From: Galerina marginata
Taxonomy: Eukaryota > Basidiomycota > Agaricomycetes > Agaricales > Galerinaceae
Assembly (NCBI GenBank): GCA_023014335.1
Contig: JAECYW010000018.1
Coordinates: 868,001 to 932,000, forward strand
Length of the DNA stretch: 64,000 bases
Reading direction: 5' to 3'
Numbering within the stretch: position 1 is the stretch's first letter; every line of letters starts with the position of its first letter. Position numbers and translations under genes: made by a program. The notes under the pieces are model-generated. The model worked only from the letters and a program-made list of their open reading frames with translations, did not search any database and had not been told where the DNA came from. Below are positions 31,184 through 56,600 of the stretch, piece by piece.

Positions 31184-31364
31184 TACAAATGAAACTTGAG
31201 TTCGAGGGCCAAAGAATACTAGTAAGTATCAACAGAAGGAATATCAATATCATCAACATACCCATGAAGTTTCACAGCCCTCAAACCCGCAACGGACAGC
31301 CGTTTCCGATCCCATCACCCTTTCGCCCATATCAACGGCATTCCCACAAATACAAACATATATT

Positions 31365-31397
31365 ACGAGTCCTATTTATAGGGCTCGTTCTTTTATC
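31365..31397. repeat. Quasi-palindromic short repeat, copy 1
   Basis: ACGAGTCCTATTTATAG followed by GGCTCGTTCTTTTATC. Nearly identical to 57887-57919 (one base differs). Self-complementary around TATTTATA. Confidence 0.7.
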
Positions 31398-32300
31398 CTG
31401 AGGTCCTCTGGGCGTTTGTGCGGCTTTTGCAACGCTATACGAGCCGGCAAACCCCGTGAGCGCTTCTATTAATGATGCCATCAAAATTCGTCCTCAGCAT
31501 CTTCTGTTCATTATTCCATTTTATTCTCTGCGCGGAATGTTATCCTTTGTACATATTCTTAATCCCCTTATTTCTGCGAACACAGCCATATAAAATTTTT
31601 TCACAAATTACATAGGTTGCAATGAGATGGATGCACAATCAAGTATCCGGATGTGCTCATGATCATTGCTACGTGATAAAAATAGATTTGACTGCCTTGC
31701 TCTCTTTTTGCCCGTCATAACGAGTCTTCATTTCGTCAGTCCCCTTCACTTTTTTTTATTAAAACACCATCTTCTGACTAATGTGATTCTAGTGATCTAA
31801 ATTTTCCAAATAACCTTACTGCCGTATCCTCGCGCCCCAACTGCCAACCTGCCGTCTCTCGCCTCTCACCTCCTGCAGCCCGTTTTGTCACCAGCATTGC
31901 AGGGGCATCTTCATGGAAGTTTGCACACTGGCACTGACTCCCTCGGACCCAGGAGACAGGATCCGGGATCCAGAACATTGCGACGATGAGAAAGAAGGAA
32001 GATGGACAGTGACGACTGGATAGTCGGGGTCGCTGTCCGCTTCGCGTGGCGGTGGTGTACGCGCCGGTATATGCTTCTCCTTTACCCAAACCACCTGTTG
32101 TCAATGTGAGCCACGTAGCTAACGTACATCACACAGCGCTCTCGAGTCAGGACCTGTCAACCAACCCGCGCCTTCAGCTTCACCTTATACCCCAGCGGTT
32201 GCAGCTTCATCCGCCGAACGTATGAACAAATAAATGACGACAACTACACGGAGTAGTCGAGATCACCAGATGCCGGGGGTGGTGCTGCGAGCAGGAGCAG
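31398..32300. other. No gene seen
   Basis: AT-rich then mixed sequence with short frames only (for example 31778-32104 minus). Nothing recognisable. Confidence 0.4.
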
Positions 32301-34640: not shown

Positions 34641-35325
34641 CAGGATAACCTCGATAGCTAACCCGAGGATCGTGAAGTACAAACAGCATTGCCCGCGCGA
34701 TCGTGGAGTTGAATAGAAAGGATAGAATGGTATCAAATTTCGCTCAACCAACTCCAGCCCCAGCCATTGAATGATTCTGAATGAATGAACAAGCAAGCAA
34801 GCGAGGCGGTGGTATTCCCGGTGCTGTTTCTGGTGTCAATATTGAGGCGCGTATGTGAAAATTAGGTGGTCTGTCTGACCTCTCATGCATCTCATGACTG
34901 ACCCCTCAGTATTTGCTTGCAGGTGGTATCCTGATTATCCGTGGTTTTTTGGACCTGTTGTCTTGACGCAACACCTATCTTCACGGGTCTAGTAACAGCA
35001 CGGAGGAAAAAGAAAAAAAGAGAGAAAGAAAAAAAAAGGACTCGTCAATGCTATGCTGCAAGGCAATGGCTCACAAGCCACGTCTCAGCCATATCACGCG
35101 TCCGCCGTGGTCGCCCACGACGCGTCGGGAGTGCATCCATGTTGAATTCTGTTTGATGAGTGGCAAGGAGAATTTGAGGTTGCGGTGGACTTGCGACGAG
35201 AGGTTCTAGGGATGACAATTAACAGTTAGCTTCAATACGCAAGCTTTGTGTGGCTTACCGCTCTCCACAAATTCCTGCGAGTGTAAAGACCCGTCAACTG
35301 ATCCACCCGCTCAGGTAGAATAGCA
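34641..35325. other. Left flank of the giant element
   Basis: No confident gene. The minus strand holds a protein-like stretch at about 35250-35345 (VAILPERVDQLTGLYTRRNL) ending in a good donor, possibly a gene fragment cut by the element. A purine-rich run lies at about 35005-35040. Confidence 0.35.
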
Positions 35326-35420
35326 ACAATGTACCGTAGACTACGATACAGCTATTGTTTGACAATGTACCCGCAGCTATGGATGCAGCGGACGTAGCTT
35401 ATGAATATACAATGTATCAA
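35326..35420 (+). repeat. Left terminal inverted repeat of the giant element
   Basis: Reverse complement of 53590-53690 with scattered mismatches and one or two small gaps. Contains three of the four left-hand ACAATGTA motifs (about 35327, 35362 and 35409; the next is at 35448). Confidence 0.85.
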
Positions 35421-35624
35421 GGAATACGAGTAAGCTAACAGCCCATACAATGTACAATACTGAGTGGATAAGCTTATGGGTGTCTCCTGGGGCAGTATAG
35501 AGACGGCATGGATTGGAATTTATCTATATACACGGATGGGCTTATGTAGTAGGCTCGGGAACTATTTACAACGGTCGCGGTGGCTTAAAGCGTAGAACGG
35601 CCGACGGAAGGTATTCGGATGCGA

Positions 35625-37538
35625 TCATTGGTCTAGCTCCTCCAGGTCTTTGGTGATGGCTTCGGAAACTTGAGTGAGTCGCTGGTGCACAATATCTAAA
35701 CTTTGCATTGCTGTTATTTCACTCCTGATTTTTGAAACCCGGGCATTGTATAGGAGGGCCCCGGCGTTCTCAAAACCCAAACTAGGGGAGATCTCTTCGA
35801 TACTCCTCAGGCATTGATGAAGTTCTTCCCAAGAAAGGGGCTACATGTGGTATCAGAACCCGAAAACGGCGAAAGGGAGGGATCAGTACTTACAGGTTTG
35901 CCGGGGGTCGTTAAAGGATTACCGTTGGGTATAACAGCCTATAATTATTAACGTACTATTAGCCGTAGGAATAATGAAACATTAATAGACACGTACGACT
36001 TGGTACGGCCAGGGATAACCAGCCGACTCAACGGGATGAGGATGAGGAGCCGCCCGTGGCATGCCTGGTCCTCGGATAAAATCGAGATTGGGGTCATCTT
36101 TATGGTCGGTGATTGGAAGCGTAAAGTTTGGTGGGGCTTGGGCAGTCATCCCGGGTATCGGTTGGGGGGCAGGCGGGGCAAAAACCTGGGGGATTCGAGC
36201 TCCAACGGGTTGTTGACGCAGGGCGGGCGGTGACCAGTCAATTGTAATCGGTCTATCAAATGCATTACCAGGGGACAACCCGGGCTGCGGGGGGGCATGG
36301 CCGACGGATGGCCCGGCGTCGAGCTCCTCGGGCCCTGTCGAGGATAAACTAATGGGTGTTCCACCGCGTTGTGGAATAACAGCGCGCATTTTGCCTTTCT
36401 TCTGTTTCCGCACTGCAGCGGATGACGGGTGAGGTGGCAGAACGGGGGACGGGTGAGCAGCACCGACGGTTGGTGCTTCAGGCTTTTTGTCTGTTTCTAA
36501 GTCGTCAAGAAAGGCGTTTAAAGAGAAACTACTTGCGGAAGATTCCGTCTTGTCGGGTTTCGGACCAATATTCCCAATCGGCCGTTGAAGATCGTTTTTG
36601 GGTACAGGGAAGCCGAACGGGTCCAGTAACGAGGGTGCTGCTATCGGGTGTGCGTATGAACCCTGGAAACGGCTAGAGGACGCCATCGGCTCTGCTTGCT
36701 GTGCTAAGACACGGGCTGCATAATCAAGAGGGTCTTCCTCCGACCCACTGCCACCCGAATTTGCGTGGTCAGCCGAACCGACTGCCCAGGGCTGTCCACT
36801 ACACGCTGATTCCTCCAGTTTAATAGTCGGAGGGAATAGACTGCGCTGTGAACTGTTGGGTATGTTCGATGTAGCCCCGAAAAAAACTTCCCTCGGCGGC
36901 GGGACGTAGGCGGTGAGAAGGGTAGGTGGTCCCCAGGGCTTATGGCGCCAAGCTTGAGGTGACTTCTGTGCCTGTGGAAGGCCTATGTGAGTTTCCATGT
37001 AATCGAAAGGATCACTTTCAGAATCGGAATGTTCCTCAGCCGATTCCGCGGCCGGCCGATTGTTACTTGAACCACCACCTTGGGGATCGGTCGGTCCTGG
37101 TAAGGATGTCGGCTAAGTCTAATCAGCCTGGTACCAACAAAATTCATGTTTCAAGCCTTACATTGTCTTCGGGCGTAATCGGTGGCTCGTCCGATGGTTC
37201 ACGGAAAAGCCCATCATTTTGCGTGATTCTTTCAATCTTTAACTCTTTGGACAAGTACTCCAAAGGATCGCTTTCATTGTCAGATTCGGACCCGGAAATG
37301 CTCGTCGCGGGACTATGGTCGTCATTCGACTGATCCAACTCCCTGAAGCTCACCGGATTACCGGATGCAAGACCTGCATGGTTGAAAACTAAGTAGTTGA
37401 CAATATAGAACAATATGGACTCACTGGTAGAATCATCCATAACGATATCAACGGCCTAGACATAGAAATGTGTTGAGTGTTAGAGAAATTTTGAAATTCT
37501 GAATTTACCTCGGTTGTTGGATTTGACATCCTATCCAT
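35625..37538 (-). CDS. Giant-element accessory protein 1 (Pro/Ser-rich, triple DP-hydrophobic-acidic-Tyr motif)
   Basis: 549 residues from six exons: 37538-37509, 37455-37425, 37373-37162, 37112-35997, 35938-35894 and 35840-35625, phases consistent. I do not recognise a domain. The N-terminal half holds three related acidic motifs: SESDNESDPLEYLSKEL, HSDSESDPFDYMETHI and GSGSEEDPLDYAARVLAQ. The middle is Pro-rich and disordered. The C-terminal about 70 residues are predicted-helix-like (LSWEELHQCLRSIEEISPSL to AITKDLEELDQ). It shares a 240-bp divergent promoter with accessory protein 2, which suggests co-expression. It may be a scaffold or a transcription/targeting partner of the transposase; that is inference. 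Start chosen as the first ATG of an exon with a good donor; an ATG three codons further in is possible. Confidence 0.75.
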
Positions 37539-37778
37539 TAATTTTCTTATCTTGGTGAGACAACGGCTGCGATGGCTGAACAGTGAGCAATATGCGAATC
37601 TGTTCGGTGGAGAGGTTGATCTTGTTGATAACAATTAAGGTGACGATGACAAAGGCACGTGACCTTGTCACGGTTTGGTTGATTTTCAAAATGTCGCGTT
37701 CTTGCTCTCTATCTATAAACACACTCAAGTCCTCCTCACGCGCCGTTCTCCCCGAAAAATCTTCGCTTTTGCATCAAG
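37539..37778. promoter_or_regulatory. Divergent promoter within the giant element
   Basis: 240 bases between accessory genes 1 (minus) and 2 (plus). TATAAA at 37714-37719 lies 65 bases before the plus-strand ATG. Confidence 0.55.
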
Positions 37779-40700
37779 ATGTCAGCCCAACCAACTGTCA
37801 CCCCCTCTGCCGTTCCACCTGCACCCGTCACCACCACCTCCGTCGACGTCGCTGGCTCTCTCGCGACGACCACTGGCTCCTCTGCTGCACCGTTGGCCCC
37901 AGCTGCAGCTGCGCCAGCCATTAATCCAGAAATGCTGCCCCCTGTTGCGCCGAGCGACGTCGCTCCCATCCTTCCTCTCGCCGAAGTCCCCCTTGTTCCT
38001 GCGACCCCTTCTTTGGAACCTGCCCGTGCATCGCTCCCCCCTGGGCCTTCATCTCTCGGCGAAACTGTTGCGTTGCCCGGCGCCCAACCCGCTGCGTTGG
38101 GTTCTCCATTCGTCCCCGCACCTCGCCCTCAGTTGCCCGACATTACGAAGCTTCTCGCGACGGCCGCTGGTACTAGCCCGCCGCCCCCACACCCGACGCA
38201 GACGAAGAAGGAGAAACAAAATCTTCGGTACCGCTCCTACGACAAAATTGCTCTCGTCTCCTCTCTTGAAAAGCTGCTTGTCACGAAGGAAGAGTGGGCT
38301 GAAAAGGGAACGGATGCCGTTAGGGAAATTGTGAGTAATGAAATTTTCAACATAATTCCTCTCTCACCCCCTTTCTAGGCGAGGCTATGGAAATCGTTCC
38401 GCGTCAATCAGATAGAAGTCCCGCCCTTCCTTCGTGGACTTCAAGACCACATCCTGTTGATTCGCCAGGATGCTGAGCAATGTCGGGTAACTTTGCAACA
38501 ATATCTGGCTGACCGCGACGCCGACGGCGAAAATGATGTACCTGCCTCCGGTGAATCGACCGCCCTTCCATCGACTGCGCTCCCGCCGCCCTCCGCTCCT
38601 ACTGGTGGTCCGACCATCCCCCCAGTGTCGATTGAAGCTTCGGATGCGATGCCCCCGCCCCCCGCCAACGAGAGACCTCATCCAAGGCCCACGTTCCGCA
38701 AACCAGCTGCAGGTGGAGACTTGCCCCCTCCAACCCAGCCGTTAGAGTCTTCCCAAGTCCCAACACCGTCACTTTCACTCCCCGCCCCGCCACCCGTTGC
38801 ATCGGCGGGCGCTATGAATGCTACGCCCGCTGGTCGGAAGATGCAACCGACGATTATGATGGTTGATCAGCAGAAGACTGAAGTGGACGGCTCTCACGAG
38901 GACGAAAGTAATGATGAGGTACCCGACGAAGAAGAGCGACAGCGAAGACGGCTAGCAAAGGGAAAGTTCAAGGAAGAGGAACAGGAGGCCGACTACCCGA
39001 TGGATTTGTCGAAACCGAAGCGGAAGAGCGTCAAGGGGAGGTATGTGGACGTGGAGTCCGAGCACGAAGAGGTGAAAGGGAGCGACGACGAAGAAGAGGA
39101 GGAGGAGGAGGACCAACTGGCGTCCGACAAAAACGACGCGGCTCCGAACACCCGACCTCGGCGCCGATCGAAGACCGCCGCCAACAAACGACTTAAGGAA
39201 GAACCCGTGGACGACGATATGGACTACGTAGGGATTCTTTCTGACTACGCCGACGATCGCAAGGGTCCCAGTACGCGTTCAAAGAAAGGACGGAAGCCTA
39301 AGCCCGAGCCGAAATCGAAGGCTTTTGTCAAGGACACCGACGAAGAAGACGACGACGTTCCCGTCGAGGTAGACCGTTTCGCCGCCGTGGGGAAGAACGA
39401 TCCGGCGTGTTCCAAGTGCGTGTCGAAGGACATCACTTGTTACTTCGTCGTCGACCGAGGGATCTTTGCCTGCCAAGGTTGTCACAAAAGCAAGGTCAAG
39501 TGCACTGTGGCAGCACGTAAGGCCGCGAAATTAAAGCACGACCAAGAAAAAAGGCCCCGTTGGGACGGAACCAAGTCTGTACCCCGGACGTCGACCTCCC
39601 GACCGCCTCGAGCATCAACATCCCGACCGACTCGTTCCTTGAAACGGACGACTGAGACCGAAGAACGCAAGCCGTCCCGGGTGACGACGACGAGGTCCAC
39701 GACGATGGAGAACCAGCTGAGGGCCGAAATGCAAGCGGCCGATCAGGGTAACTTCGCCACGTTCAATTTTTTTTTTTCCAAACTGACATCGGATCTTAGG
39801 TCACCGATATAGCGCCATGGAGAAAATTATTCAGGAGCTACAGACTGAGGTTCGTGGCCTTCGTCAAGAAGTTGTTGAACTTCGGGCAGCACAAGGGAGC
39901 CAAGCGACCATGGCAACTCAACGGGCTTTGAACAATGCGGAATCGCAGTCATTGTTCATGAGTGACATCCAAGCACGTCTTCGAGCCGCAGGGATTCCCG
40001 AAGTCAACCCCCTCGAACACCGGGCCTACCTTGGCGCGCCTCCGGATCCAAACGCCCAATCGGCCGGCGACGTCATTCGAGGATGGCAGACGAACGAGAT
40101 TCGTCCCTCCATCGCGTCGACATTGTCGGTCCCACCGGCCCCTGAAGCACCCCAAGGACCCGTCTTGCCCTCGCAGGCTTCGTCGGCCCCACTTCCTAGC
40201 ATTCCCCCTCCAGTGGCAGCCCCCGTTCCTGCCCTTCCCCCTCCTATTTCACCTCCAGTGGCCCACCCCCACGGACTTTCCTCGCCGTCCCAATCCGTAT
40301 CGGTCCCGTCGCCTGAAAATTTGGCTGCCACTGCGCCTCCCGCTCTCGTTACCGATCCGACACCTTCCACGGGTGGTCAAACGACCCACATTCCCTCGAC
40401 GGCCGAGGTTTTACCGCCGGCCGACGACAGCTTGCCAATTGGGACGGCGGAGCTACAGGCAACGCCAACACCTGGGGTCACGTCGGAGGGGCTGTCGGCG
40501 GGTGTGGATAGTCAGCCACCGGCGGCCCGACCTCTAGTTGAGTACGACGACACTCCCGCTTCCTCTCAACTCGCGCATTCCGACATCGCCGACCCCCCCA
40601 CAATTGTGGCAAGCTCAGTGGGCCCCGCCGTACCCGGTCCCGACACCCCGAAGCCAGAGGTTTCATCGGCCGAACAAGTTACACCCGACCGAATGACATC

Positions 40701-41037
40701 CCAGGAGGCAGGACACACTGCATTGTCTCCAATTCCAGAACAGTCCGAGCCGCCAGCCGATGGAGAGGGCGAAAACATGCAGGTCGACACCACCCCAGTC
40801 ATCACCACTGGAAGTCCCCGGGCCCCGTCGTCGATTGCCCTTCCATCCGTCCCCCATGTCCCATCCTCGTCCGACACAACGTCGGCTATCAGCCCAGCAC
40901 CTCCTCAACTACCTGGGTCACCGGCTTCATCGACTCCGAATGTCCCACCGTCGTCGGGCGAAAAAAGAAAACGCGGCCGGTCAGGATCTGTAATGTCGAC
41001 CCGAAGTTCGAAGAGGTTGAAGGACGGAAAGATGTAA
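37779..41037 (+). CDS. Giant-element accessory protein 2 (Zn-cluster and coiled-coil, putative DNA-binding)
   Basis: 1052 residues from exons 37779-38330, 38379-39747 and 39800-41037. The N-terminal 130 residues are Pro/Ala/Thr-rich. There follows a conserved-looking helical block (YDKIALVSSLEKLLVTKEEW to LRGLQDHILLIRQDAEQCR), a long acidic and basic disordered stretch with KR-rich nuclear signals, and a cysteine cluster CSKCVSKDITCYFV with CQGCHKSKVKC. That cluster resembles the DNA-binding Cys clusters of basidiomycete proteins related to fungal Zn(II)2Cys6 factors. After a basic region comes a coiled coil (IIQELQTEVRGLRQEVVEL) and a 300-residue Pro/Ser/Thr-rich tail ending in KRKRGRSGSVMSTRSSKRLK. 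It is probably nuclear and may recognise element DNA; the specific role is unknown. Confidence 0.8.
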
Positions 41038-41258
41038 TATTGAATGGGGGGGATATCTTTGTACCAGCCATGTAAATATTTCATTAATGTTTATCCACAC
41101 ATTTCTTCTTGGTATGACCAGTGTGTCAAGATATTTGGAAGCATTTGGAATTATTAAAGGTATATTATTGTATGATACTAGAGAGAACTTTATAACACAA
41201 GGTAAGAGATGTATTGCCAGGTTTAGTTATTAATTTGCTGGGCTGCTATGGTAAATCT

Positions 41259-43855
41259 TTATGGTTTGTTAAACTTGTAATTTCCACGTTTAGCCGCCGG
41301 GCCAGCTTCATAGTCCGGCCGACTGACTGCCGCCCGTTTCCTTGGACTATTACAAATCTGCACTGGTGGGTCTTGATATCTTACCTTCTTTGTCTTCTTG
41401 ATATCATTTGCAGAGGTGGTTGGGTGTTGAATGATTGGCTCTTGTCTAGGTCTTTTACCATTTACATTCTTCATGAAATTCTCGTCGGTATTGAAGTGGT
41501 CTACCGTTTGACCGGCCGACTTCACCGGCCGTGGCTTGGGCCTTGGTACGAGAGGGGGCTGCGGCGGGTCCAGTTGTTGAATGTGAACCGGATCACGAAC
41601 ATTATTGGTGGATTTCGTTTGCAAGGGGCTAGCGGGAATGCTTGCGGGCTGACGATGAAAGTCCGTCTCCATCCTGCCGGCCGCCGGTTGATCCCATCTC
41701 AACGGCTCCGTCGGAACATTGTTTGGGGTGTACGTGGAGCTGGGGAAAACAAAAGGCTGGGTAGGCAATGGCAGACCGGTGGTTTGACAAGGCTGATTTC
41801 CATTGTGCTGCTGGTAATCAGTCACATAGGGAAGGGGCTTATTTGAGTCCATCGGATCGGGTGGATTGGAGTTTCTATTCATCAACCCTTCCCTGAAATC
41901 CATGGGTGGAAAGAAAATGGGTTCATTCATGCCCCAGGCAGGGGCGTCACCAGTGTAGTCGGGACCGGCCGACGGACCGGCCGACGGACCCTCAATAAAT
42001 GTAAAGTGTGGGTTGGTGGTAGCTTTAGAATATACTTGCAGTGCAGGATCTAAGAGCCGATTGATATCATCGCCCCCGAGAAGATTTGCGGCCGACGGAT
42101 CGTAGGTTAGTGATGGGGGATTGGGTAGCTCAGTCATTGGGCCGTCGGGTTGAGAAATTGCATACTGGTTAATGTGGGAGTGGCCGGAAAGACCAGCGGC
42201 CGACTGGTCCACGGGAAGAATTGCGGCCGACGCATCATAGGTTTGTGATGCCAGATCTCCAGTCATTGGGTCGTCGGGTTCAGATATCCCTTGCGGGTCA
42301 GTTCCAGAATCATTTAGAAAGGGTTGAGAAACCTTGGCGGTTGCTTTGCCCTTTCCCTTTCCTTTAGCCTTCCCCGATTTGCGTTGTTTGGGCGGAGCGG
42401 CGGCCGGCGCATCCAACTCCTCTTCATCGTCGGATACACCGTGGCTCATTTCCGGATAAGGCGCAAGAAGTCTAATGGGTGATTTTTTGTTACCACCTTT
42501 GATGTGGGACCAACGAAAAATTTGCGACGGCTCAACACGTGTTTGCCTGTCACGCCAGAAGTCCAATAGTTTGTCAACTTGGTCTTCAGTCATCCTCGAT
42601 GGATCGACCATCCGAACATCGGCCGGCCAATATTCAGCAGCCGCCCATTTCAAGGGGTCCTCACTGACCTCCTTGAATGGGCTGCTCGCATGCTTGCGGC
42701 CGCGGGCTATGGCTGCTGATTGTTAATAACAAGGAAACTATGGCAAAACTGAATGACTGACCATAGTTAAGATTTAGAAAGGTTCGGACCATGTCCTTCC
42801 TGTCGGACAAGGGAGGATTAACATAGTCGGCGCCGGTAATTGGCTTGAATACTGGATAGCCATATTTTCTGTCAAAGGCAGCCGCCGCGGCTGCCCGTTT
42901 TTGCAGTCGTCGGCTGGGGTCCACCGGGGCGTCGTCATCATCCTCAACACCATACATGTATTTGGCGTGCGTCCACCAGTCTTTAAACAAAGATTCAACG
43001 AGCTCGGGCTGCTTGTCCTCCAGCTTCTTTTTGGGGTCCCCCAATTCGTTATTATAGTCATAGCTGTGCAACAATATGAATATGAAAGAGACAATAGGAG
43101 AGGCACCATACATTTCCATGCCGAGGACCCCCTTCTGGTTAATATATGCACCTAGAATGACCACCCGCATTCCACATCTCTTGAAAAGAAGCTCCGCGAA
43201 CTGTTGGGTCAAACGGGTACTTTCTTTCTCAACAAGCCTGGTCACAGTCGGCTTTAAAAAACAACCCAATAAAGGCAGGCCGCAAAACGCACCTTTGTTG
43301 AACCTCGGCCGGAAGGCCAGCAACCTTCCAATCCAACGCCGCCTGGCGGTATTCATCAAGAACACGCGATGGAAGGCGGTCCTTTACGTTCCGGACGCCC
43401 TCTCGAAATTTTCCTATATATCCAGGATCACCGGGTGCGACGCCGGAGATTTTGCGGACTTCCTCTTCGATTGCCTTTCGTTCCATGCATGCTATAATGC
43501 TATCCACTTTCACCTTTGGGGCAAGAAGATTGAACTTTGGTTTAACGATCCTTCTCCGACCCGAATTGCTAAACCACTCTTTGACCTTCTGCTTTAACTG
43601 TTAGATATCTCCCTGTAAACAATCAACAATCTGTGTACTCACCGTCTTTAAAACACTTTTCTCAGGTGGTGACAAATTCGGGTAGATTTTATACAGTTGG
43701 GGCATGACAATGTTGCCAAGAAGAGCCTTACGCCCCTCTTTGTCTTCATCACGGAATTTGTCAAGATGGGGCTCGAGAACTGCGAGTTCATGGTCCTTCC
43801 AAGGTGACTTCTTATTCTTCGAAGCCTTTTTCTTCTTTGTAGGTTGTTCAGGCAT
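41259..43855 (-). CDS. Giant-element accessory protein 3 (unknown, nuclear)
   Basis: 799 residues from exons 43855-43643, 43597-43293, 43237-43112, 43063-42762 and 42712-41259, all phase-consistent. N-terminus MPEQPTKKKKASKNKKSPWK is strongly basic, followed by a folded-looking region (LEPHLDKFRDEDKEGRKALL, KVKEWFSNSGRRR, PGYIGKFREGVRNVKDRLP) that resembles an uncharacterised family frequent in mushroom genomes. The central part contains LVESLFKDWWTHAKYMYGV and ITGADYVNPPLSDRKDM. The C-terminal 450 residues are disordered and rich in Pro, Ser and SAD/AAD triplets encoded by GGCCGAC. It ends convergently with accessory gene 2, about 220 bases apart. No catalytic motif is seen. A DNA- or chromatin-associated helper of transposition is a guess from context. 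Confidence 0.75.
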
Positions 43856-45466
43856 GGTGGATGGACAGAAAAAAAAGGTGGTTCGTTTCCAGGAACAGGA
43901 TTGTTGATTCAGAGTCAGCCACAGGGTTTGATCACCGAATGGGCGATCAGTATCACCCATATTCCAAAAAAGGAAAAGTTACCCAAATTGGTATCCCCTC
44001 TTCGTTGCCTCAAGGAGTCTTCAACAGGGGTTGGACATCTGCTTGCCATTCCAATAAGGTTCCGGTCACTCTATCAATGCATTCATTGATGTTCCAACAC
44101 ATGTTGTTACCCGATTGCACCTGTCCTCCCGGGCAGAGGATGATGTTCACCCACAAGTCCATTGAAGGCAGGGATTAGATTCTTTAGGTCTATTGGCCTA
44201 AGTAGACACTTCAGAAGGACCAAATACATTACATTACTGTATTCAGTGACATTGTACGATCGAAAACTAAGCACAGATTTGAAATTAATCTATAAATGAA
44301 GGTAATCTAGACTTAGAGTATCAAAAGAGTAAACATGGTCACCCCAGCTGTCACCCATAGAATTTCACACTGTAAACAACATGAATGTATTCTAATAGAG
44401 CCAATAACGTTATTTCTTCAAAAGAACATTCACCCGGAAAGATTACGGAGCTACGGGCAAATTGTAAAATTGGTCGGGCAAAGTTAGAATAGGTCCGGGC
44501 GGGTTCAAATTTTGTTCCAGAGGGCTGAATGTCTACGATTGAGTTTTCATACACAGATCCTTCAAATATATTATGTAGCCGAAGATTTGAAGGTTGATTT
44601 GGCGTTTTTCAATTTCGTGTTTCAAAAAGTTCAAAAGTTTGACTGAATTCATGTATGCAACTATGAAGAGTCCTCGAAAACGACTTCCTAATTGGGATGA
44701 CCATTTCTGAGTATCTGAATTTTGTTTAGGACATCCTATAATGCTTCTGGCCAAGTTTGAAAAGATTTGAACAAGATTTGGATGAGCTACATGTGTTCTG
44801 GTCCGGGGGGAAGACTGTTTTGATGCTCCAGAGATTACCTGACAATTGCATTTTTTTGCCACGGTTAAGAACCTTCGGTCTATGTGTGTTATGTATAGGT
44901 CCCAGTAACGTTTTATTCAGCCACGAATTGAGCGGATTGGACCACGGCGGCTACCACGGATCTCAGTTTTACCCAGCCGAACAATTCCCCATTTACTACC
45001 TCAATTGGACATGCTGTCATGAGGAAATTGGCAATATTATGAGTCAGATAGCAGACAGTCATATGTACCATACAACGTATGATTTTATGTGGCAGTCTGA
45101 GAGGTTCTTCCATTGACATGGCTGGCATTCCGGGAGCGGACGGATTCCGGGAACAGTGGGACCACAGCTCCACTGTGCTTCGAAATACAAATAATATCCA
45201 TATTTGGATTCGTGACAATTGTATTGCATGTGGATGAAATGTGTGGCTCACCAGTGTCACCGGGCCTTCATTCCATTGAGAATCCTAATACAAAGAGTAA
45301 TTGTATTAGGCCACAACATTAGTGTGAAAGGTTCCGGCCGAGCGTAATGCCATCTTATCTATCCATCATTCTTAGGCCGCCCATGTACCAGGATTGCACT
45401 CATTGCTGTCCAATGACAAGTACGGCTATAGTTGGGATTATATTAGAACAAGGGGAAAGAATTGGC
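43856..45466. other. Divergent spacer between accessory gene 3 and the transposase
   Basis: 1.6 kb with short frames on both strands (44533-44862 minus, 44757-45116 plus) but no supported gene. Contains a perfect hairpin at 45284-45310. Presumably holds both promoters. Confidence 0.4.
45284..45310. repeat. Perfect 10-bp hairpin upstream of the transposase
   Basis: CCTAATACAA, a 7-base spacer, then TTGTATTAGG. It lies 214 bases before the transposase start codon. Confidence 0.8.
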
Positions 45467-45473
45467 TATAAAA
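45467..45473 (+). promoter_or_regulatory. TATA box of the KDZ transposase gene
   Basis: TATAAAA, 51 bases upstream of the chosen ATG (45524). Its position argues for that ATG rather than the in-frame one at 45347. Confidence 0.6.
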
Positions 45474-45523
45474 TGGCCGACATTTCGCATCGTTTAACAG
45501 TTAAATCTTCAGCAGTATTCGAA

Positions 45524-48500
45524 ATGTCATCCTCCAAGGGCAAAGAGCCTGCTGGGCGAGCTACACCGAAATCGACCCGCCGGGGACGTGGATGGACTAA
45601 CCGACGACTGACTGGGCCACCCCAATCTCAACCGAATGTCGCTGTACGGTTCAAGGCTGTAGAAAAGGAAACTTCCCGTGGTATACAGGTCAAAAAGGTT
45701 ACCACCGAGATTGACCTAGGCCAGCCGTCGGCCCGTGCGCAAGGGAGTCGTCCGAACACCGGTAGGGTCGCCGATACACCCACCGATGACGCTTCAATGA
45801 TGTTTCAAGAGCACGGGGCTGATACCTCAAGTCAGGTACATTTAAATATCCGCCCGGCCGGTGGAAAGGTACTTGCAATCTTCGGTGGCACTGTGAACCT
45901 TCTGACTTACCTTTGACTTTTAGACTCAGGGAGATTTCCTTCTGGAATTTATTGCCCACAAGGAAGGAATGTTGGAGGCATTGTTGGCGACGTATGGCCT
46001 GCCCCCAAGCAGCACCTGCCAGAACTGCCGCAAACGGATCGGCCGGTGGCGCTGCAAAGATTGCTACCTCCACCCTCTTCTCTGCCGCGGCTGTTGTCGC
46101 AATCAGCATATCAATCTTCCGTTCCATCGTCTGGAACGTTGGACGGGCAAGTTTTTTCAACGGGCGGCCCTGTGGGAAGTCGGGGCATGGTTATGTGTCC
46201 CACATGCCGGCGAAGTATGCGCCACGTTAACGGACGTCCTAAATCACATGGAATCAGCTGAACAACGTCGTGATCTACTGGAACAGGAAATTGTTGCCAA
46301 ATTGGCATCATTAACAGCCATCTTCCCAATGAATCGGCCGGCCCCACAGCGCCACCCGGCCGATCATGCGCAAACCGATCCTGACTTCCAATGGCAAAAA
46401 GTCACTCAGTGGAAGCAGAATATGGCCATGGATGATCCCGATGTAATGCCAGAACTTCAAAGTGTGGAAGACTCGGACGACGGCTACTCAGACGACGGCT
46501 TGGATGACGGCCGGTATACCATTGGCCGCAGTGATGTAAGTTGATTACAAAGCTCACACCATTCTTCCGATGTTAATTTCACCACGACAGGATCCAGAAG
46601 CCATGGACACCACCGACGACGGCTCTTCTAAGGATGAGGACCAAACGGCCGGAACGCAGGTGTATTCAGATACCTTTGGAGGTCTCCCGGAAGAGACGGA
46701 ACCAACCTTGGTCGATGATCCCGGTGATGATCAGGATTGGGATGATTTTGATCCTGACGAATCCGTCCAGGCCACGGGTAATCGGCTCGGGCAAGGCATT
46801 CCTCATCAGAACGATCTGGGCCACCCATTTATTACTATCGTCGACACCACCGGAATTCATCACCTGCCATTTTTGACTTGCAACTGTCATGGGCCTGGAC
46901 TTGTCATCCAGGAATGCTTGTTTGCTGGGCTGCTTCCATCCAGTTTCAAGGTCATACACACGGTTTTCACCACTAGGTGCCTTAATGACTTTCGGATTCT
47001 GAATTTGGAATGTAAAACATCAGCATATCAGTATTATCAATGTCTCCGACAAATCACCAACCCAGCGAATCCATCTGCGGTTCCTGATCGATATGCTGAA
47101 CTTCGCCGGGCCTCAAGGGAATGGCGTCATCTCAAGAAATTGAAGCAAAATGGATTCGGTCACAAAACAGAAACTCCTTCCACAGGGGAACTCAGTCTCT
47201 TTTGTCCTGCCTGTCCTCAGCCGGGGATCAATCTCCCATCCGATTGGCAAGACTCTGAGCATCTGTATGGTTCATCCGATGTTCCGTACACTTTATGCTA
47301 ACAATTTCCCCAGTGAGGTATATACCCGGACGTTTGCAATGGATGGTAATTTTACGGCCGATCACCTCAAACAAAAGCGTCCGGGCAATGATGTGTGGCT
47401 TCTGGATGGTGAGGGTATGATCACGGATAGGACACGGTATAAAGAGCAGTTAAAGACGGCCTTCGAAAAATACACGGTACATTTCATCAGGCATTCGTTC
47501 CGTTGACCTAGTTGACATTAATGCATTGCAGAAAGCACCATGTGAACGAAATTTCCAAGCTGTTGAACAGGCAAACAGAACATCAACAACCAATGATGTT
47601 ACAGGGATTGCCGGTGTTGCATGCGCTCGGCATGGTTGTTTTGCCCCCGGCTCGGTTTCGGACCTCCAGAAGGGTGAAAGGCAAATGAATGTTGATTGGG
47701 CCTTTTGCGAAGCAGTGAAGAACACCAATGTTCCTCTCAATCGGCAGGTATTGCTTCTATATGACATATACTGTCAGTGGTCTATCAATTTCGAGGAGCG
47801 GTTGGCCAAAAGCCCCATGTTGTCACTTCCGGATGGTGTTACTGTCGATGGCGGCATTGGATTATTTCATGTCCATGGACATCGAGAGGAATGCCTTTAT
47901 CGATATGCGACATATTTCGTACCCTCGGCGGCGGTCGTCGATGGCGAGGTCCTGGAACGATTATGGTCTGTATTGAACCTAGTGTCCAGGTCCACAAGAA
48001 CCGCCACACTGGCGCATCGGGCGGAAATTCTCGATGACCATATGAATGACAATAACTGGAAGAAGTTAATTGGAATGGGTGAGAGTTTGTAGATTGTTGC
48101 GTCATTCAGCCAATGTATATTTCCAATATAGTGGCACTTATTTGTAAAAGGTACAACACAGCCCGAGAGTCGGAACAAGAAACAAGAGGTTACTGGGATG
48201 AATTAACGGAGTCTATGTCTCCTACAATAATCGAGCAATGGAAAAGGGATATAGAGCGAGCCGAATCACAGAGGCGAAAACACCCGAAAGGCATGGATAT
48301 TATGGGAGCCAAGGGAACAAAGTGTTTGTTTGTTTTATTCCGAAGCCAGCTCTATTCTAAAATTTCTTACCCTTCAAATTATAGTGAAAACACGGGCAGA
48401 TGTTGAATTGGATTTAGTGTCAGGACCGGCCGTCAACCAAACTTCGACCGTGCGCTGGCTCATGTCGGGATTGAATCTGGAGGAGGATCAGTAAGTTAAA

Positions 48501-49584
48501 AACACTTGTATCTTATGTTTCCTAACAATGCTTAGGCTTCACCTCCAAATTTACATCCATCACAAAGGACGATATCCTAGCCGAGCCGAAATGGTCGATA
48601 TCGCGAGCCGCCGGGACCGTCTACGTATTCGGATAGAAAGATTTCAAAGGGAATCAATGGAAAAACTGGACAAAAATGCAACCGGATATATTCAGGACGA
48701 GTCGGCCGATATCGATTTCTTTGACGCCGACCAATCTGGACAACCACCCGGACAACCCCCAGTGGAAGCCTTTCGCACTGAACCAGGTGCCGCCTCTGAA
48801 AAGCTCAAATTGGCGTTACCGTCAAGCTTCCCACCAGAATATCTCAAGAACTTGGGCCTGGAGGGATTAATCAAGCAGGAACTTCAACTACGTTATGGGC
48901 AAGCCAATGAAGCTCTGCAGGGCATCCGATTAGCAGTGGGACAACGATCATTCCAGTACACGTCAAATATGCGGGCGGGTGAAGGCAATCCCGGTTTGAA
49001 AACCCGCAGCCGAGCCGCCATTCAAGGCCTCGGCCGCACAATATCGGCCCACCGCCGAGTTTATGTCAAGTGCCGTGCAGCCATGATGGTTCTGGGCTTA
49101 AGTCACGAGGATCAACAGGTGTATCGAAAGATTGAAGATACAGACGTTCGGACCGACACAAGCATTTTGGATCCAAATCGGCCGGGTGCCGCGAAAGAGC
49201 AGTTATCTTGGATTTTTACCTTCGGACGGGCTAGGAACGAGTCTCCGTCAGATTTAACAGAATGTAAGTTCATCGGCCGATCCAATTAGAACGGTTCATA
49301 ATTGATTTGCAGATTACCGTGTTCACTGGCTTCGGGCGAGGGCCCATGCACGTCGGTGGGCAGAGGAGTTGCGTCTGACCGACCATGAAATGACATGGGT
49401 CGCAAGATTTTTCAGTTATAAATACGGCGGGTGGCAGAATTGCAGGGACTTTGCGGTGAACAAAAAATCGGCCGGAGCGGTTGCCTACGCGGAACGGCAA
49501 ATGCATTTTTGGTTTGTCATGGCCCAGAAAGCCGACGGTGCATTTACAAAAGTGAACCCAGATTATGCCCCCATTACCAATTAA
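45524..49584 (+). CDS. KDZ-superfamily transposase with CxC2-like Cys cluster
   Basis: 1212 residues from nine exons: 45524-45868, 45924-46535, 46591-47264, 47314-47476, 47532-48078, 48132-48323, 48385-48490, 48536-49263, 49313-49584, phases consistent and no frame break. A Cys cluster (CQNCRKRIGRWRCKDC, CRGCC) of the CxC2 type found with KDZ transposases lies near residues 130-180. The RNase-H-like catalytic core follows: FAMDGNFTADHLKQKRPGND (first Asp), LLLYDIYCQWSINFEERL (second Asp), IGLFHVHGHREEC, and GEVLERLWSVLNLVSRSTR (Glu). The C-terminal region (LKNLGLEGLIKQELQLRYGQ) is the usual KDZ extension. KDZ enzymes move DNA by cut-and-paste. The catalytic residues are inferred by motif match. 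All appear present, so the protein may be active. Confidence 0.9.
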
Positions 49585-49725
49585 CTTGTACCCGTTAGTG
49601 CAGAATATCTATTTATGGAAATGTTTGATAAGCCTGTCACAATGTCACCACACGTGAAAATTGTTCAACTTTGTTTCTTACCACAAACTATTCAACTGAT
49701 TCAAAGATCTTCTGCCGATCCGACA

Positions 49726-51526
49726 ATGACATCCACTGCCAATCCTGACATTCCCTTCCATCCATTCTCCCCATGGAGTCCCATATGGATTTACAAAGAT
49801 AACGCAGTATTGGACTGTCAAGATCAAATATACTACATGACAAGCCGCTTGCGAGCCATTCTTGTTGATTATTTTCTGGACACTTTGTTTCTGGAAGATA
49901 CTGAAAGAGCCTGGTGGAACAGCAATTTCCTGGAAGAGGTTGTGAGTATTTTGAGACTTCTTGCAGAATCAGATTGATCCATGATATCTGCAGGCAATTG
50001 CCAATGGGCTTCTCGGCTGGGTAACGGCCATAGGTTCCACGCCCGACGTTCCATATATCCTAAGATCAATTTGCGTCTACTCGGTTTTTTTAGATAAAAC
50101 CTCGACCATTGGCTATACTGACGACATGCAAACTCTTTTGCTGACGAATCCCCAGCATATTGAGTCTCCGTACCTTCGCCCCGCGCCGGAATATTATAAC
50201 CAATGGTGGAAAGCATATACGCCCGAGGCCCGCAGCTTACATTATAAAGAACTTCGTCTGGCGCAACAACACCATATTTCGGTCGTGCCGTTGCGCGACC
50301 CGATACCCGAGCCGACGCCCGACCCGACCACCTACATGCCCGATCATTCTCCTCATCGATCTTTCACCGAGAATTACGAGGATTTCAACCCAGGTTACGT
50401 GGATCATTTGAATGCGCCAGATACCAGCCTCGCCGCCGACGAAGATATATATGATCCTGAACGGCATTGTGACAGATGCGACATCTACCGTGCACTTGCC
50501 ATGAAGGCTACAACGGCTCTTCGGGAAACATCGACCCATGTCAAAGCTATGAAGCAGTATGCCGAATGGTCGGTAGCGACGTCTCAACGCATGTGCTTTG
50601 GGCTAAAGTTCTTGATAATGAAACGGCGCCGTCTCAAACGAGACATTGTTGTCACCGACTTGAAAAAGTGGGGAAAAAAGGCTTACCTGGACAAGGATAA
50701 TGCCTCCTGCGAACGGTTTAGCGTCACCTATCCATCGGAATCAAGCCTCGAAATTGTCGGCCAGTCTCCGGAAGATAGCCAAGGTCCACTACTGTCTGCC
50801 CCGGGCAGTGCAATGTCGGACCCTGAAGAGGAATTCATTGTCGTACCTGGCGGTTACCCTTTATCTGAACTCGAACCCGAATTTGAACACCCGCCCGACA
50901 TTTGTGATTGGATTTCCAAGGTTCACGGGCCGCCGACCGGTCGTCCGTTCGACTCCCTGTCGGACAGTTTGGCTCATTCACCACCGTCGAACGAAGTGGT
51001 TGACCTGCAGTCTGCCATTTATCAACTGGCAGATACCCCTCCTCCCATCGATCACGAAGGTATACGGATGACCACGATGATTGAAGGGTTGGACCAGGCG
51101 ATCAGCACCGGAACCTCTCTTTTACAGCAGCCACCGATCCCGCCAACCCATCAACCGCCGAGTCCGTTTGCCGCATCACCAACACCCCCGACACCGGTTC
51201 CATTTCCAGCTCCCGTAGCCACCCATCCGGGGAGTCAACCCTCTGTACCCGAACGGGAATGGAACACTCGGCCGTCGATAGTAACATCGCCTCATGTCAT
51301 CGGACATGATACTGCAATGGATGTTGACCAGCCGATATCGCCGGCCGGTACCTTCATATCTTCAACAGGTCTCTCCGATCGATCAGTGGGACCCAATGAA
51401 GCAGAAGCAGATGATGAGGATGAAGACGGGGAGGATGAAGACGAAAATATGGACACCTATGAACATGGAAATCATGGGTCGGATGGATCGGAGCTGAATG
51501 AAAAGGATCCAGAATGTCAAATGTAA
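49726..51526 (+). CDS. Giant-element accessory protein 4 (unknown, acidic C-terminus)
   Basis: About 582 residues if translation starts at ATG 49726 (MTSTANPDIPFHPFSPWSPI); an in-frame ATG at 49615 would give 619. Exons: 49726-49941 and 49994-51526. An N-terminal folded-looking region (ILVDYFLDTLFLEDTERAWW, ANGLLGWVTAIGSTPDVPYI, EYYNQWWKAYTPEARSLHYK) is followed by a CDRCDIYRAL segment and a helical basic block (FGLKFLIMKRRRLKRDIVV). A long Pro-rich stretch follows and the protein ends in a run of Glu/Asp. It begins 142 bases after the transposase stop codon on the same strand and may be co-regulated with it. No family recognised. Its constant company with the transposase in this element suggests a helper role. 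Confidence 0.7.
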
Positions 51527-51573
51527 TTCATCACATTTTATGTATTATATAGCTTGTTACCCTCTAATTTAGT

Positions 51574-52828
51574 TTACTTTGGTGTGTACCATCCAGGGAT
51601 AGGTAACCCAAGCCTATTGTGAACCTTTTCCCTCATATAATATGCAATACATGCTCTATCCCCATCACAATGAGCAGAATGTGATATAACCCGTCCGGCT
51701 AAGGCTACCACTGTGCCCGGGTTATAGTGGAATCGGACACCAATTCCTGGCAACTCCAAAAACCCCTCACGGTATGATCCTAGTGCAACAAGAATATCCA
51801 TGAAGGTTTTTCCAGTATTAGTGTCTCGGTGAACTGGTGTCACTCTGTTGCTAATGACTGATAGACCATGGAATGGCGCAGTCCATATCTGCAACACTTC
51901 CAACAAGGCATTAGGATGGTCCACTCTCTCTGGTTCCTGGCTGAGTAATAGCATTGCTTGTTTGCCAGCTTCATACAGCTCGGGCTGTACCAGGCTCAAG
52001 ATTCCGCCAATTAGGGCCGACGATTCCAGCATGCCGCTCAGCCATTGGCGAGCCGGTCCCTCACTTGCAACCAAAGGCTTGGAGACCTTCAAATAATGTG
52101 CATCCGTCTACAAATAGAATTAGATCGGCCGATGAAATTAAGACGACTTCGTACGTCGTGTCCCTGCTCAAACCATGCCGGAGCAATGCTTGCTGTCCCC
52201 GGCCAAAGCCAGCCGGTGGACTGCGAACTGTAGTATTTCGGCCCACATCTCCAATTACTGCTGCTTTGATGTACCTTTAGCTCTGGTTGCAATTCATGTA
52301 ACCTGTTCCACATTAATGTCTACAACCGGTCAGCTTATTAGCCCGTCCGAACAGCAGCCTTCGACGTACTCTTCGGAACTTCGTCAGAACACCCGGGAGA
52401 TACCATGCCAGTGCCTTTCCATTGACATCAGTAACCATACGCGGATATTCATATTCTTCAACCTCGTCATTTATGGGGGGGAATTCTTCAATTAAAGATT
52501 TCTCGGTTGATTCGTTCCGGCCGGTATTCCGAGTCTTGAGCCGTGCTGCATAATCTTCTACCGCCCAAGTTGTGCTGACTAGTTCAAGTAATCAAGCTAC
52601 ATCCCGACAGTTCAGTCATCTACCGGGAAACTTACTTCTCTTCTCCCAGGCTGCTGCTATTACATTCACTGCAAGGTCGCAGTCAACCAGGAGTTCCATT
52701 GTCCACTCATTTGGAAATGGGACATGACTCTTGTCTTTCTTAAGGATGGAAAGGAGTTTATGATTCATATACTTTGCCACTTTGTCTGTCAAAGTCAGTA
52801 TGGGTAGGCAAGGACTTGATTTTGTCAT
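51574..52828 (-). CDS. TET/JBP-family 2-oxoglutarate- and Fe(II)-dependent dioxygenase
   Basis: 366 residues from exons 52828-52636, 52578-52370, 52319-52155 and 52107-51574, all phases consistent. The double-stranded beta-helix core carries the iron ligands in VTPVHRDTNTGKTF (H-x-D) and the distal His in RVISHSAHCDG. The 2-oxoglutarate-binding Arg follows in DRACIAYYMRE. Upstream are PRMVTDVNGKALAWYLPGVL, KYYSSQSTGWLWPG and AHYLKVSKPL, all typical of fungal TET/JBP proteins. Animal TET and several fungal members oxidise 5-methylcytosine in DNA; that activity is inferred here from the family. The gene converges on accessory gene 4 (47 bases between stops). It lies inside the terminal repeats of the KDZ element, so it probably alters methylation of element DNA. 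Confidence 0.88.
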
Positions 52829-53589
52829 GGTGAAAGTCGTAGCCAAGAGTAATTTCCTTTTAGAGAATCAGAACCATTTTCAATCAATATTCTAGTTATT
52901 CCCACAATTCATTCAATGCAGTGCTGGACGGCCGACCTGTTACATCTGGTACTCCGACAATTGACTTCATATGTTGTATCTATTTTACACGGGTCGTACG
53001 ATCACACCGAATGCTTGGTATAAATTTTGGGCGGCCGATCTTCCGCGACCCGGCCGATGTCTACAGGATTTATTGAACTTCAATTATTTGGGTGCTTAAA
53101 CAGGAATACAGTTCATTGACTACTTACCTCGTCGATATTCTGACTAGTCAACCAATGTTTACCTACTGCTACTCAGCTTTGCCGGCTGTCCGATATAGGC
53201 ACCTGTCGGTGAACCATAAACTTGTGTCATCCCTTCTTAACTTTCACCGGTAATTATTTGGATCCCACAATTCGTTCGTTACCGGTCACCTGCACCATCC
53301 GGATGTGAGCCCCGCCTGGCGGCCGATCGATCTACTACCGTTCCATCCGCTTATGTCTACAATTTAAATTCTTGAAAGGAAATATTTCGCTCACATAGTT
53401 TCACTTGCTCGCACATATCCAATCATAATTATTGGGGTGTAGTTCAATCATCAGGCCATCATCTTGTCAATGCCGGTTGGCGACAGCCGCTCTTGTCTTG
53501 CGCAATACCTCTCACCTTTCAGCCTTAAGTGCAAAGACTATAAGCTTACTCGTGGCTGCAGCTACATTGTACACCTATTAGCTTATCCA
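52829..53589. other. Subterminal non-coding region of the giant element
   Basis: Promoter region of the TET/JBP gene and subterminal sequence; no gene seen. Contains several GGCCGA strings (about 52930, 53035, 53052, 53322) and, near its end, more ACATTGT motifs. Confidence 0.5.
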
Positions 53590-53690
53590 TTGTCTACCTT
53601 ACATTGTATATCTATAAGCTACATCCGCTGCATCCATAGCCCCCGGTACATTGTCAAGAAATAGCTGTATCGTGGTAGAGGGTACATCAT
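53590..53690 (-). repeat. Right terminal inverted repeat of the giant element
   Basis: Inverse of 35326-35420. ACATTGT motifs lie at about 53564, 53600 and 53648 (with a variant at 53588). The outer edge (GGTACAT, 53681-53687) lies only 6 bases from the stop codon of the neighbouring transposase gene. Confidence 0.85.
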
Positions 53691-53692
53691 TA

Positions 53693-56600
53693 CTATGGTA
53701 TGTGACCCGCTTGCATTGGTTCGATTACTGCGTTGGCTTCAACAGATAGCCGCGACGGTGCTTCACTACCGATACTGGAGTGAAAGTCTTGATGTTGATC
53801 TATGTGTCGGTCCTCACAATAGATATCCATGTTGATGTCTTCATTTGCTTCATGCCGACCGTCTATGTCCGAGCTGTCAATACCGCTGTCCGTTTCTAAC
53901 TCGTCTTCACCCGAACTGCTGTCCGAGTCCGACTCGGAAATGGAACCATCCGAGTCCGGGTTATCAGCACTAGCGGCATCGGGTCCATGAGATTTTTGGC
54001 TCAGTAGGCCTTCGGGAGGAATATCACTATAAAATCGAGGCGTAGATTAGAATGGATCTAACAAGATAAACTAATGAGTATAGTAATACGCACGAAAAGA
54101 CTCTCCGAGTGCTATGGGCCTCCGAAATGGACAGCTTATTCTTCTTTTTAGCTCCTGTATTTGTTCGCCGTTTCTTCGTGTGTCGTTTGTTCCATTTTGT
54201 TAGCAATTTGGCTCGTTCTGAGTCCGAGATGGTAAAGGGAGCTGAATAGGACTCATAAGCTGCAGACGGGTGGTTGATGGCGAAATGAGTCTTCATATTG
54301 TACTTCCAAACTGCGCCAGCAGTTGATGGACACAGCGGACATAGAAGCGGCACGTTGGTGCAAGGTGAACTGGCGGATTCGGTGGCGGCAGAGTGGTAAG
54401 AAATTGCCTTGAGAAGATTTGGACATCGTGAAGCTTTCATGTCTATCTGATTTGAAGTGCCTACGCCTCTTCCTTTCCGTAGGTAGAATACACAAAACGG
54501 GGCAGGACGGAAGCAAAGGCCACATAGCTGCTGCGTTATGTCGAGTGATTCGTCGAAAAGAAGGTGCGTGCTGACATGCTCGAGGATTTTATGGGATTTT
54601 TGCCTGTCCCAAGAAACCAACGGTCGACATTGCGGACAAGAGTCGGATTCCGCATCGGGGATTCTCCGATCGCTTCCTTCACCCTCGCATATAAATGCGG
54701 CGAGGCCTTTAAACACAAGGTTTAATATTCAGGAACAAGTAGACTAATTCGAAAAGTTACCTTGGGATCGGTATGGGAAATACGATGAACGTTTGACAGT
54801 TGGAATCTTCAATTGATCGTCCTGTGAAAGAGAGCCAAAGAGAGATGCCGCTAAGCCACGTAACTCCTCCGTTTTGAAGAGATACACTCCGTGACCAGTA
54901 AGTCGTGTTGAAACATCGGGGTCGATAACCTGAATATTAGAGCCTCGTGTTTTTAGAACTTGGTTTTCCAAGTGTAAGTTCCACTTCCAGTCGGCATTGT
55001 TGCAATCTGGGTCATCTGCGTCCGTAATTTCTACCATTTGGTAAACCTGGAATTGAACATTAACAATAGCTTCCATAAGAAGATCTGGCCCAATCTCCAA
55101 GACGGATTCACTGTCAACACGAATTTCTGTGACCTGAACAATTGAGAGGAAAATGTTTCCTTCACATCGTACAAGCGTGGCAGCTGGATCATTTACAAAT
55201 AAAGATGGGGCAGCGAAAGCCGACCCGGACGACATTGCACTTGTGGAGTCAATTATACTTGGTGTCTTGACCGTGAATCTGGTGAGCCCAGCTACGCGAC
55301 CCAAGCGGTTGGTTGATCCTGGAATTGACGAAACCATAGCTTTCCAAAGTTCTCGAAGGGCCCGAGGCTTTGAGACTTTTTTCCCATCAACGTCGACAAA
55401 GGGGTCAAATTTCCCCTTCCCATTGCGGCTCGCTTCGATGGAAACATGCTCTTCAATATCAAGAAGGGGGCCATCATCCAGACCAAAAATCGGTTGTGCT
55501 AAGATAGCGGCTGTATCCAGAACACCCGAGGCATTGATTTCATCCTGCAGCGTAGTTTCGTCTTCAAATTCGTCAGCTTCCAATGGTTCATCGTCCTCAA
55601 CATCTTGACCGAAAGGAAATGCCATATCGTGGTGCGCAATATCAAGCTCTGTAAACAGATGGCTGATGTCAGGTCCCCGAGACTCAGCCATCTCTCGACC
55701 GAGATTCCAGGAGGTAAGTAATGAGACAGCCGCAACCCGAACATCGCCTTTCCATGAACTAGGGTTAATATGGTCAACCTTTGCGAGAATATCTCCATTT
55801 CCGTCCTCGATTGCTGGAAGTTTGAGTCGCTTTGGACCGCGGTCCCATTCAGGCTTTTTCTCGAATATGTTAAGACATTCGACAGCGTGCGACAGTCGAG
55901 TAGAGAGTTGAAGAATATCGGCATTCTGGTCAGTTCCAATCATCGACCTGACGAGGCCAAACGTTGATTCCAGGCGATCGGTACCAAGTAAGATAAGCCA
56001 GAATTTGCCGTCTGGGACACTAACTTTGGTCTTCGCGACGCAGAAGTAGGCATTTTTGACAAGAAGAATGATATCCCGGAAAGTTAGTGTTGCAAGAGCT
56101 TTATTTCGAGCCCTCTTAACGGTATATAGATAGGTGGCAAGATGGGCTGCGGCGCTGAGATGGGCAAGCTGCTCGTGTAAACTGAGATTGATTTGAATGA
56201 ATGGGATTACAATATGGCGGAAGAGAGAACCTAGAAGCTGGAGAGCTCGACGGGCAATTGCAAAGCTGGGAGTATCAGACAGGGCGGGATCCGGTAGCGA
56301 CCACACTTCTTTCAGCAAAGAATAGCAAAGTGGGACATTTTGGCGGTCGAGGGGGTTAAGAAGGTAATCCAGCCGAATCTGGGAAACCTTGTTCTCCTTT
56401 AAATGGAAACGTAAAAGGGCGGGGGTAATGTGAACGCCGTTGACCATAGTACCCATTTTCCGTAGGAGAAGATTTCTCAAGCGTTTGACAACATGCTTGT
56501 AATCTTTATCGGCCGTAAGATCGTGATCGCCAACCAGCAAATTCATAAGGCGCAAGTCCGCAACGAGAGGGAAAATGGGAGATGCTGAGGACAATGGACG

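Follow-up and report, generated by a model that had tools for sequence, protein, structure and literature searches.

The stretch of DNA analysed here (the window; 64,000 nucleotides of Galerina marginata contig JAECYW010000018.1, positions 868,001 to 932,000 of the forward strand) contains at 35312..53704 a mobile element of 18,393 bp, which is of the KDZ/Kyakuja type with CA..TG ends and is designated W. Six genes are predicted in W, namely those for a KDZ transposase, a TET/JBP dioxygenase and four further proteins designated G1, G2, G3 and G5. The borders of the element were set by comparison with a second copy on contig 39 and by its target duplication. All genome searches were performed in the host assembly GCA_023014335.1 (69.3 Mb, 43 contigs), and the other elements and families of this genome are designated C39, C8, C3b, X, Y and Z. 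A complete KDZ transposon of about 18 kb with a TET/JBP gene and four other genes had been proposed for this locus in the original prediction, and the ends, the C39 copy and the Pfam domains bear this out.

From left to right, the predicted genes are G1 (35982..37440, minus strand; 452 aa, 3 exons, serine- and acid-rich, detected only in TET-containing elements), G2 (37779..41037, plus strand; 1052 aa, with a cysteine cluster of CxxC pairs followed by a coiled-coil-looking stretch, and with low-complexity flanks), G3 (41259..43855, minus strand; about 790-810 aa, head to head with the KDZ gene and with a GTF2I-like repeat in its relatives), the KDZ transposase gene (45524..49584, plus strand; 1203 aa, 9 exons), G5 (49621..51526, plus strand; 617 aa, with CxxC ahead of a stretch of helical appearance, and with an acidic tail) and the TET/JBP dioxygenase gene (51574..52970, minus strand; 397 aa, 5 exons). 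The frames of all six spliced models are open, in line with the earlier statement that none of the genes carries a frame break, and GT..AG was kept in 20/20 introns projected on C39. Since there is a gap in the G3 alignment, the 810-aa model of this gene probably contains one further small intron. The KDZ protein combines a PF18758 match of 163.6 bits (cut-off 26.6) and a CxC2 domain (PF18803) in a single protein, and the TET protein matched Tet_JBP (PF12851) as well as CcTET (7vpn; expectation value (E) 8.5e-44). No Pfam match above the cut-off was obtained for G1, G3 and G5 of W.

The left terminal inverted repeat (TIR) at 35312..35454 (plus strand) and the right one at 53563..53704 (minus strand) were delimited by arm alignment, in which 35320-35454 was alignable to the reverse complement of 53563-53696. 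The TIR is imperfect and includes an ungapped block of 97 bp with 85% identity, which agrees with the predicted inverted repeats of about 90 bp and extends them to longer arms. Comparison of the flanks revealed the target site duplication ACCCGCT at 35305..35311 and 53705..53711, and the similarity of the contig 39 copy to W starts at 35312 and ends at 53705. At either end, the borders proposed earlier, 35329..53687, fall about 17 bp inside those of the real element. Searches with the two arms of W gave 9 and 7 matches in the assembly. A perfect 7-bp duplication together with 5'-CA..TG-3' ends was found in 5/5 complete elements (W, ACCCGCT; C39, ATGGCGG; C8, TCACCTG; C3b, GTCGGTT; Y, ACACATT); the one-ended copies C3:752322 and C6:1089208 were excluded from this count. 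For W, C8 and C3b only 7 bp are possible, while 8 bp are possible for C39 and Y if the element's final G is assigned to the target. A target duplication of 8 bp (or another length) had been suggested for checking, 8 bp being the Zisupton/Dileera criterion; a duplication is present and perfect, but the 8-bp length is ruled out for W. An alternative reading, in which 5 bp are duplicated and the outer base varies, was likewise abandoned, as CA..TG with 7 bp suits all five elements. The one-ended TIR relative at C6:1089208 adjoins a sequence which also resembles window positions 31362-31612.

In the search proposed with the original prediction, other copies with the ends of W were found in the host assembly. 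The C39 copy (C39:251021-270808) was identified by four blocks with 97.5-98.3% identity to W and has different flanks; 281 mismatches were counted in 18,211 aligned bases (1.5% substitutions). This copy is decayed: the start region of its KDZ gene is gone (143-bp deletion), the same gene has taken up about 0.8 kb of inserted sequence and contains one in-frame stop, and the TET gene carries a 27-bp in-frame deletion. The insert in the KDZ gene is located at C39:265278-266096 and is flanked by a duplication of about 12 bp. C3b (C3:1319347-1341989, 22.6 kb) is a diverged sister in which all six genes recur in unchanged order and orientation; over the aligned part, its KDZ and TET share 59% of amino acids with those of W. 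Its G2 gene is interrupted by about 5 kb of other sequence, and its KDZ and G5 models differ between two prediction runs. In comparisons of W with C3b, G3 was 39% identical, G5 36% identical over the aligned part, G2 matched with E 9e-29 and G1 only weakly with E 2.6e-4, against E 2.5 or worse for the reversed control. C8 (C8:500861-506555) is a non-autonomous derivative of 5.7 kb having only its ends in common with W by blastn, 168 bp of the left end (89%) and 165 bp of the right end (87%). Its interior is a large imperfect inverted repeat with 2.4 kb arms (91%). An empty site, as had been suggested for checking, was found for C8: its joined flanks (300-base query) match C18:352088-352387 over 300/300 bases with 97% identity, and one copy of the C8 target is present there. 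Since these ends delimit four elements in different surroundings (W, C39, C8 and C3b), the terminal repeats are not an unrelated dispersed repeat. Besides W and C39, the W subfamily includes only a truncated end at C3:752322 (94%).

The assignment to Kyakuja was made by the KDZ domain, the 7-bp duplication and the CA..TG termini, following the definition given in the text of PMC12730594; W has PF18758, a 7-bp duplication and 5'-CA..TG-3'. TET-containing Kyakuja elements of Agaricomycetes (Kojima 2025, PMC12730594) are described there with an AG-type TET beside the KDZ transposase and, like W, with 7-bp duplications and CA..TG termini. The claim of a KDZ-TET pairing known from basidiomycetes holds, and it is well supported that W is a further member of this already known kind. 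Two Kyakuja families of L. bicolor are described in the same text as lacking TIRs, whereas W has a clear imperfect TIR. Genes beyond KDZ and TET are not described for Kyakuja in the part of the text considered here or in the legends of PMC12730594. KDZ1 of Cryptococcus, as presented in PMC12810828, is likewise a mobile element with a KDZ transposase and TIRs, but differs from W by its size of about 11 kb, a 241-bp TIR, an 8-bp duplication and a CxC1 instead of a CxC2 domain.

The comparison of W with C39 was also used for the analysis of selection. The ratio of nonsynonymous to synonymous substitution rates (dN/dS; one-sided Fisher tests) was 0.16 for KDZ (p 2e-11), 0.12 for TET (p 0.008), 0.35 for G3 (p 5e-4), 0.50 for G2 (p 0.006) and, as a borderline case, 0.32 for G1 (p 0.046); because C39 itself is decaying, these values blend a constrained and a relaxed history. 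KDZ, TET, G3 and G2 are under purifying selection. Eight indels separate the two copies, four of them in G2, G3 and TET (multiples of three), two in KDZ (not multiples of three) and two in intergenic regions.

The accessory genes are not a peculiarity of the TET element: G3 clearly, and G5 and G2 less so, are also found around KDZ in TET-less relatives. The genome search with G3 recovered W, C39 and C3b, eight distant places with 30-33% identity and one marginal match (E 0.05). At 8/8 distant places a KDZ match adjoins G3 in head-to-head orientation at a distance of 2.7-8.3 kb; given their equal scores, these places are copies of perhaps three families and not eight independent cases. KDZ domain matches across the assembly amount to 135, and only 11 places have a detected G3 nearby (the three TET-containing elements and the eight others). 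One locus each of the TET-less families X, Y and Z was compared. The family Y element (C23:871843-885362, 13,520 bp) has 384-bp TIRs that are 98.4% alike, a 7-bp duplication and CA..TG ends; its order is G2-like (plus strand), G3 (minus strand), KDZ with CxC2 (plus strand) and G5-like (plus strand), with about 780 bp left beyond G5. This Kyakuja-like family thus resembles W in its duplication, termini, CxC2-type KDZ protein and order G2-G3-KDZ-G5, but is shorter, has a longer TIR and is without TET and without a G1 counterpart. In the stretches compared, family X has the gene order of Y, reversed and partly broken, and family Z has it with the G5 side not covered. With TET, tblastn gave nothing at E 1 in the compared stretches of X, Y and Z. 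G3 of W and of family Y share 22% identity over 402 residues (E 1.7e-17), and the link of G3 to the TET-less families is firm. For G5 of W against families Y and X, hhalign gave E 9.7e-5 with a probability of 58%, and for the cysteine stretch of G2 E 0.0014 with a probability of 17%. Within this genome, G3, G5 and G2 travel with the elements, which suggests that some helper genes belong to the core equipment for transposition, with the TET-type gene as an add-on; a G2-G3-KDZ-G5 chassis seems to have gained TET and G1.

GTF2I (TFII-I) repeats are best known from vertebrates. G3 of family Y gave a sub-threshold Pfam match to GTF2I (E 8e-4), and in an alignment of the corresponding stretch of W, C3b, Y and Z the family Z fragment reached 27.3 bits and family Y 24.6 bits (PF02946, cut-off 27); no GTF2I match was obtained for the same stretch of W and C3b when searched singly. 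A profile of the four sequences searched against the PDB retrieved six sequences up to E 10, 5/6 being TFII-I repeats (best E 0.0021), a result not independent of the Pfam match because the stretch was picked after that match was known. GTF2I repeat proteins have their repeats in series, in contrast to the single copy in the G3 relatives. The middle stretch of G3 (alignment A2) matched nothing convincing. Protein database searches with G3 gave no match at E 0.01, although agaric TET relatives are present in that database; scoring was limited to the 8000 candidates with most words in common, which makes this negative weak. An HMG box was not detected in G3 by sequence in Pfam or the PDB. Additional proteins, including one with a divergent HMG domain that may or may not be G3, are said to have been reported by Iyer et al. 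in PNAS in 2014. In our reading, G3 is most likely a DNA-binding partner of the transposase. The presence of a TFII-I-type repeat in a protein of a fungal transposon would be unexpected.

Tet_JBP matches in the genome number 18, the three strongest (75.8-77.8 bits) being located in W, C39 and C3b; five matches on C23 exceed the cut-off only together with their neighbours (35.2 bits) and ten are below it. These five weak matches (C23:2791967-2870203) have identical scores and a spacing of about 19.46 kb, and the region resembles a tandem array whose 19.5-kb unit includes a distant TET-like gene. The nearest of nine database relatives of W TET is from Hebeloma (54%), and further named ones are from Galerina, Gymnopilus, Agrocybe and Psilocybe. 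In the alignment to CcTET of Coprinopsis cinerea (7vpn, 8jkk), the HxD motif, the distal H and the residue equivalent to Asp337 are kept (residue numbering and roles according to PMC12730594). CpG sites account for 2,256 of 18,193 positions compared between W and C39, yet for 83 of 187 transitions, a 5.6-fold excess (4.5 to 9.4 by block), as expected if the copies were methylated. Comparison of the truncated C3 end with C39 and with W gave an excess of 13.1-13.4, while it was 1.6 to 7.8 in other repeat pairs and 2.7 for the short C39/L036 piece within the W/C39 pair; rows of the C6 tandem array without CpG sites yielded no ratio. In the repeat pair C3:747102-751690 / 768298-772856 (4.6 kb, 94% alike), 151 of 214 transitions fall at CpG (13.6-fold), a sign of CpG-directed repeat mutation in this genome. 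In view of the 1.6- to 13.6-fold range across repeat pairs, the CpG transition bias was dropped as proof of TET protection; the ratios are compatible with such protection and with its absence, neither showing nor excluding it.

Taken as a whole, W is very probably a complete and probably autonomous TET-containing Kyakuja (KDZ) transposon, built on a chassis of G2, G3, KDZ and G5 to which TET and G1 were added. From the ends, the duplications and the ends-only derivative C8, we infer that the KDZ transposase would recognise about 165 bp at each end and, on inserting the element, duplicate 7 bp of target sequence. The chassis, which also exists without TET, would consist of KDZ, G3 and, probably, G2 and G5. 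In view of their association with KDZ, the most likely role of both G3, with a GTF2I-like repeat, and G2, with a cysteine cluster, is to bind DNA and assist the transposase. TET, with G1, probably oxidises 5-methylcytosine at CpG sites of the element, which would weaken silencing. Self-demethylation of transposons by TET was proposed before, as stated in PMC12730594, and for W an escape from methylation by this route is plausible because the catalytic residues are kept and TET is under selection.

Several observations weigh against this interpretation. The gene models are predictions of a home-made script guided by conservation in C3b, and in the host assembly an empty site was found neither for W, whose right flank is single-copy and whose left flank is repetitive, nor for C39. 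Selection was not detectable for G5 between W and C39 (dN/dS 0.67, p 0.26). The genome search with W G5 returned only the three TET-containing elements, and that with W G2 returned these and marginal matches (E 0.04 and E 0.08) without reaching the TET-less families; the link of G5 to those families, by position and a weak profile match, is moderate, and that of G2, mainly by position, is weak. The AG-type TET criterion asks for Asp337 and Gly or Ser at position 331 in CcTET numbering; this position, Gly in CcTET, is Thr in W TET and Ser in C3b TET (judged by eye on the predicted model). Furthermore, the CpG transition enrichment between W and C39 means that TET did not prevent methylation-type mutation.

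The last point also favours a reading in which TET serves the host or transposons generally, with oxidised cytosine as a chromatin mark, and merely rides along, and so does the occurrence of oxidised methylcytosine also on retrotransposons in two mushrooms (reported in PMC12730594 and PMC8889193). We consider this reading rather unlikely, as purifying selection acts on TET within an element of low copy number and the three strongest TET matches of the genome sit in the three TET-containing elements. More weight is given to the possibility that W is complete in appearance but already immobile, being silenced or short of a needed factor: its subfamily is confined to two copies and one end, and its distance from C39 is not that of a very recent event. 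The open model frames, the preserved intron borders and the perfect target duplication argue against immobility, which is nevertheless an appreciable, if less favoured, prospect. That G1, G2, G3 and G5 are captured host genes carried as cargo would fit the lack of Pfam matches for three of them, their large size and low-complexity tails, and the missing G1 counterpart in family Y, but is improbable in view of the gene order kept in the diverged C3b, the head-to-head position of distant G3 beside KDZ and the likewise positioned G2- and G5-like genes of TET-less families; for G3, host cargo is disfavoured and was rejected, since its distant relatives adjoin KDZ. That a pair of inverted repeats encloses host genes by chance has practically no probability left and is refuted by the identical borders of C39, the perfect 7-bp duplications in all five complete elements and the C8 empty site.

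With respect to the surroundings of W, window positions 33800-35088 in the left flank belong to a dispersed repeat (67 matches, counting this one), whose end lies about 220 bp from the element. At the other side, the open frame of the right-hand predicted gene (53693-54046, minus strand) terminates within the last 12 bases of the element, and the insertion of W may supply the last codons of this gene.

Tentatively, and with a chance placed slightly below even, mushroom Kyakuja elements may represent a conserved four-gene machine of G2, G3, KDZ and G5, in which G3 would bind DNA via a TFII-I-type repeat, probably as part of a complex of several proteins assembled on long subterminal ends. TET and G1 would be an exchangeable anti-silencing addition to this machine. 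As one genome holds a TET-containing element, a decayed copy, a diverged sister, TET-less relatives with a seemingly shared chassis and an ends-only derivative, the roles of ends, chassis and TET become separable, and with TET-containing and TET-less elements in one nucleus the anti-silencing idea can be compared by methylation.

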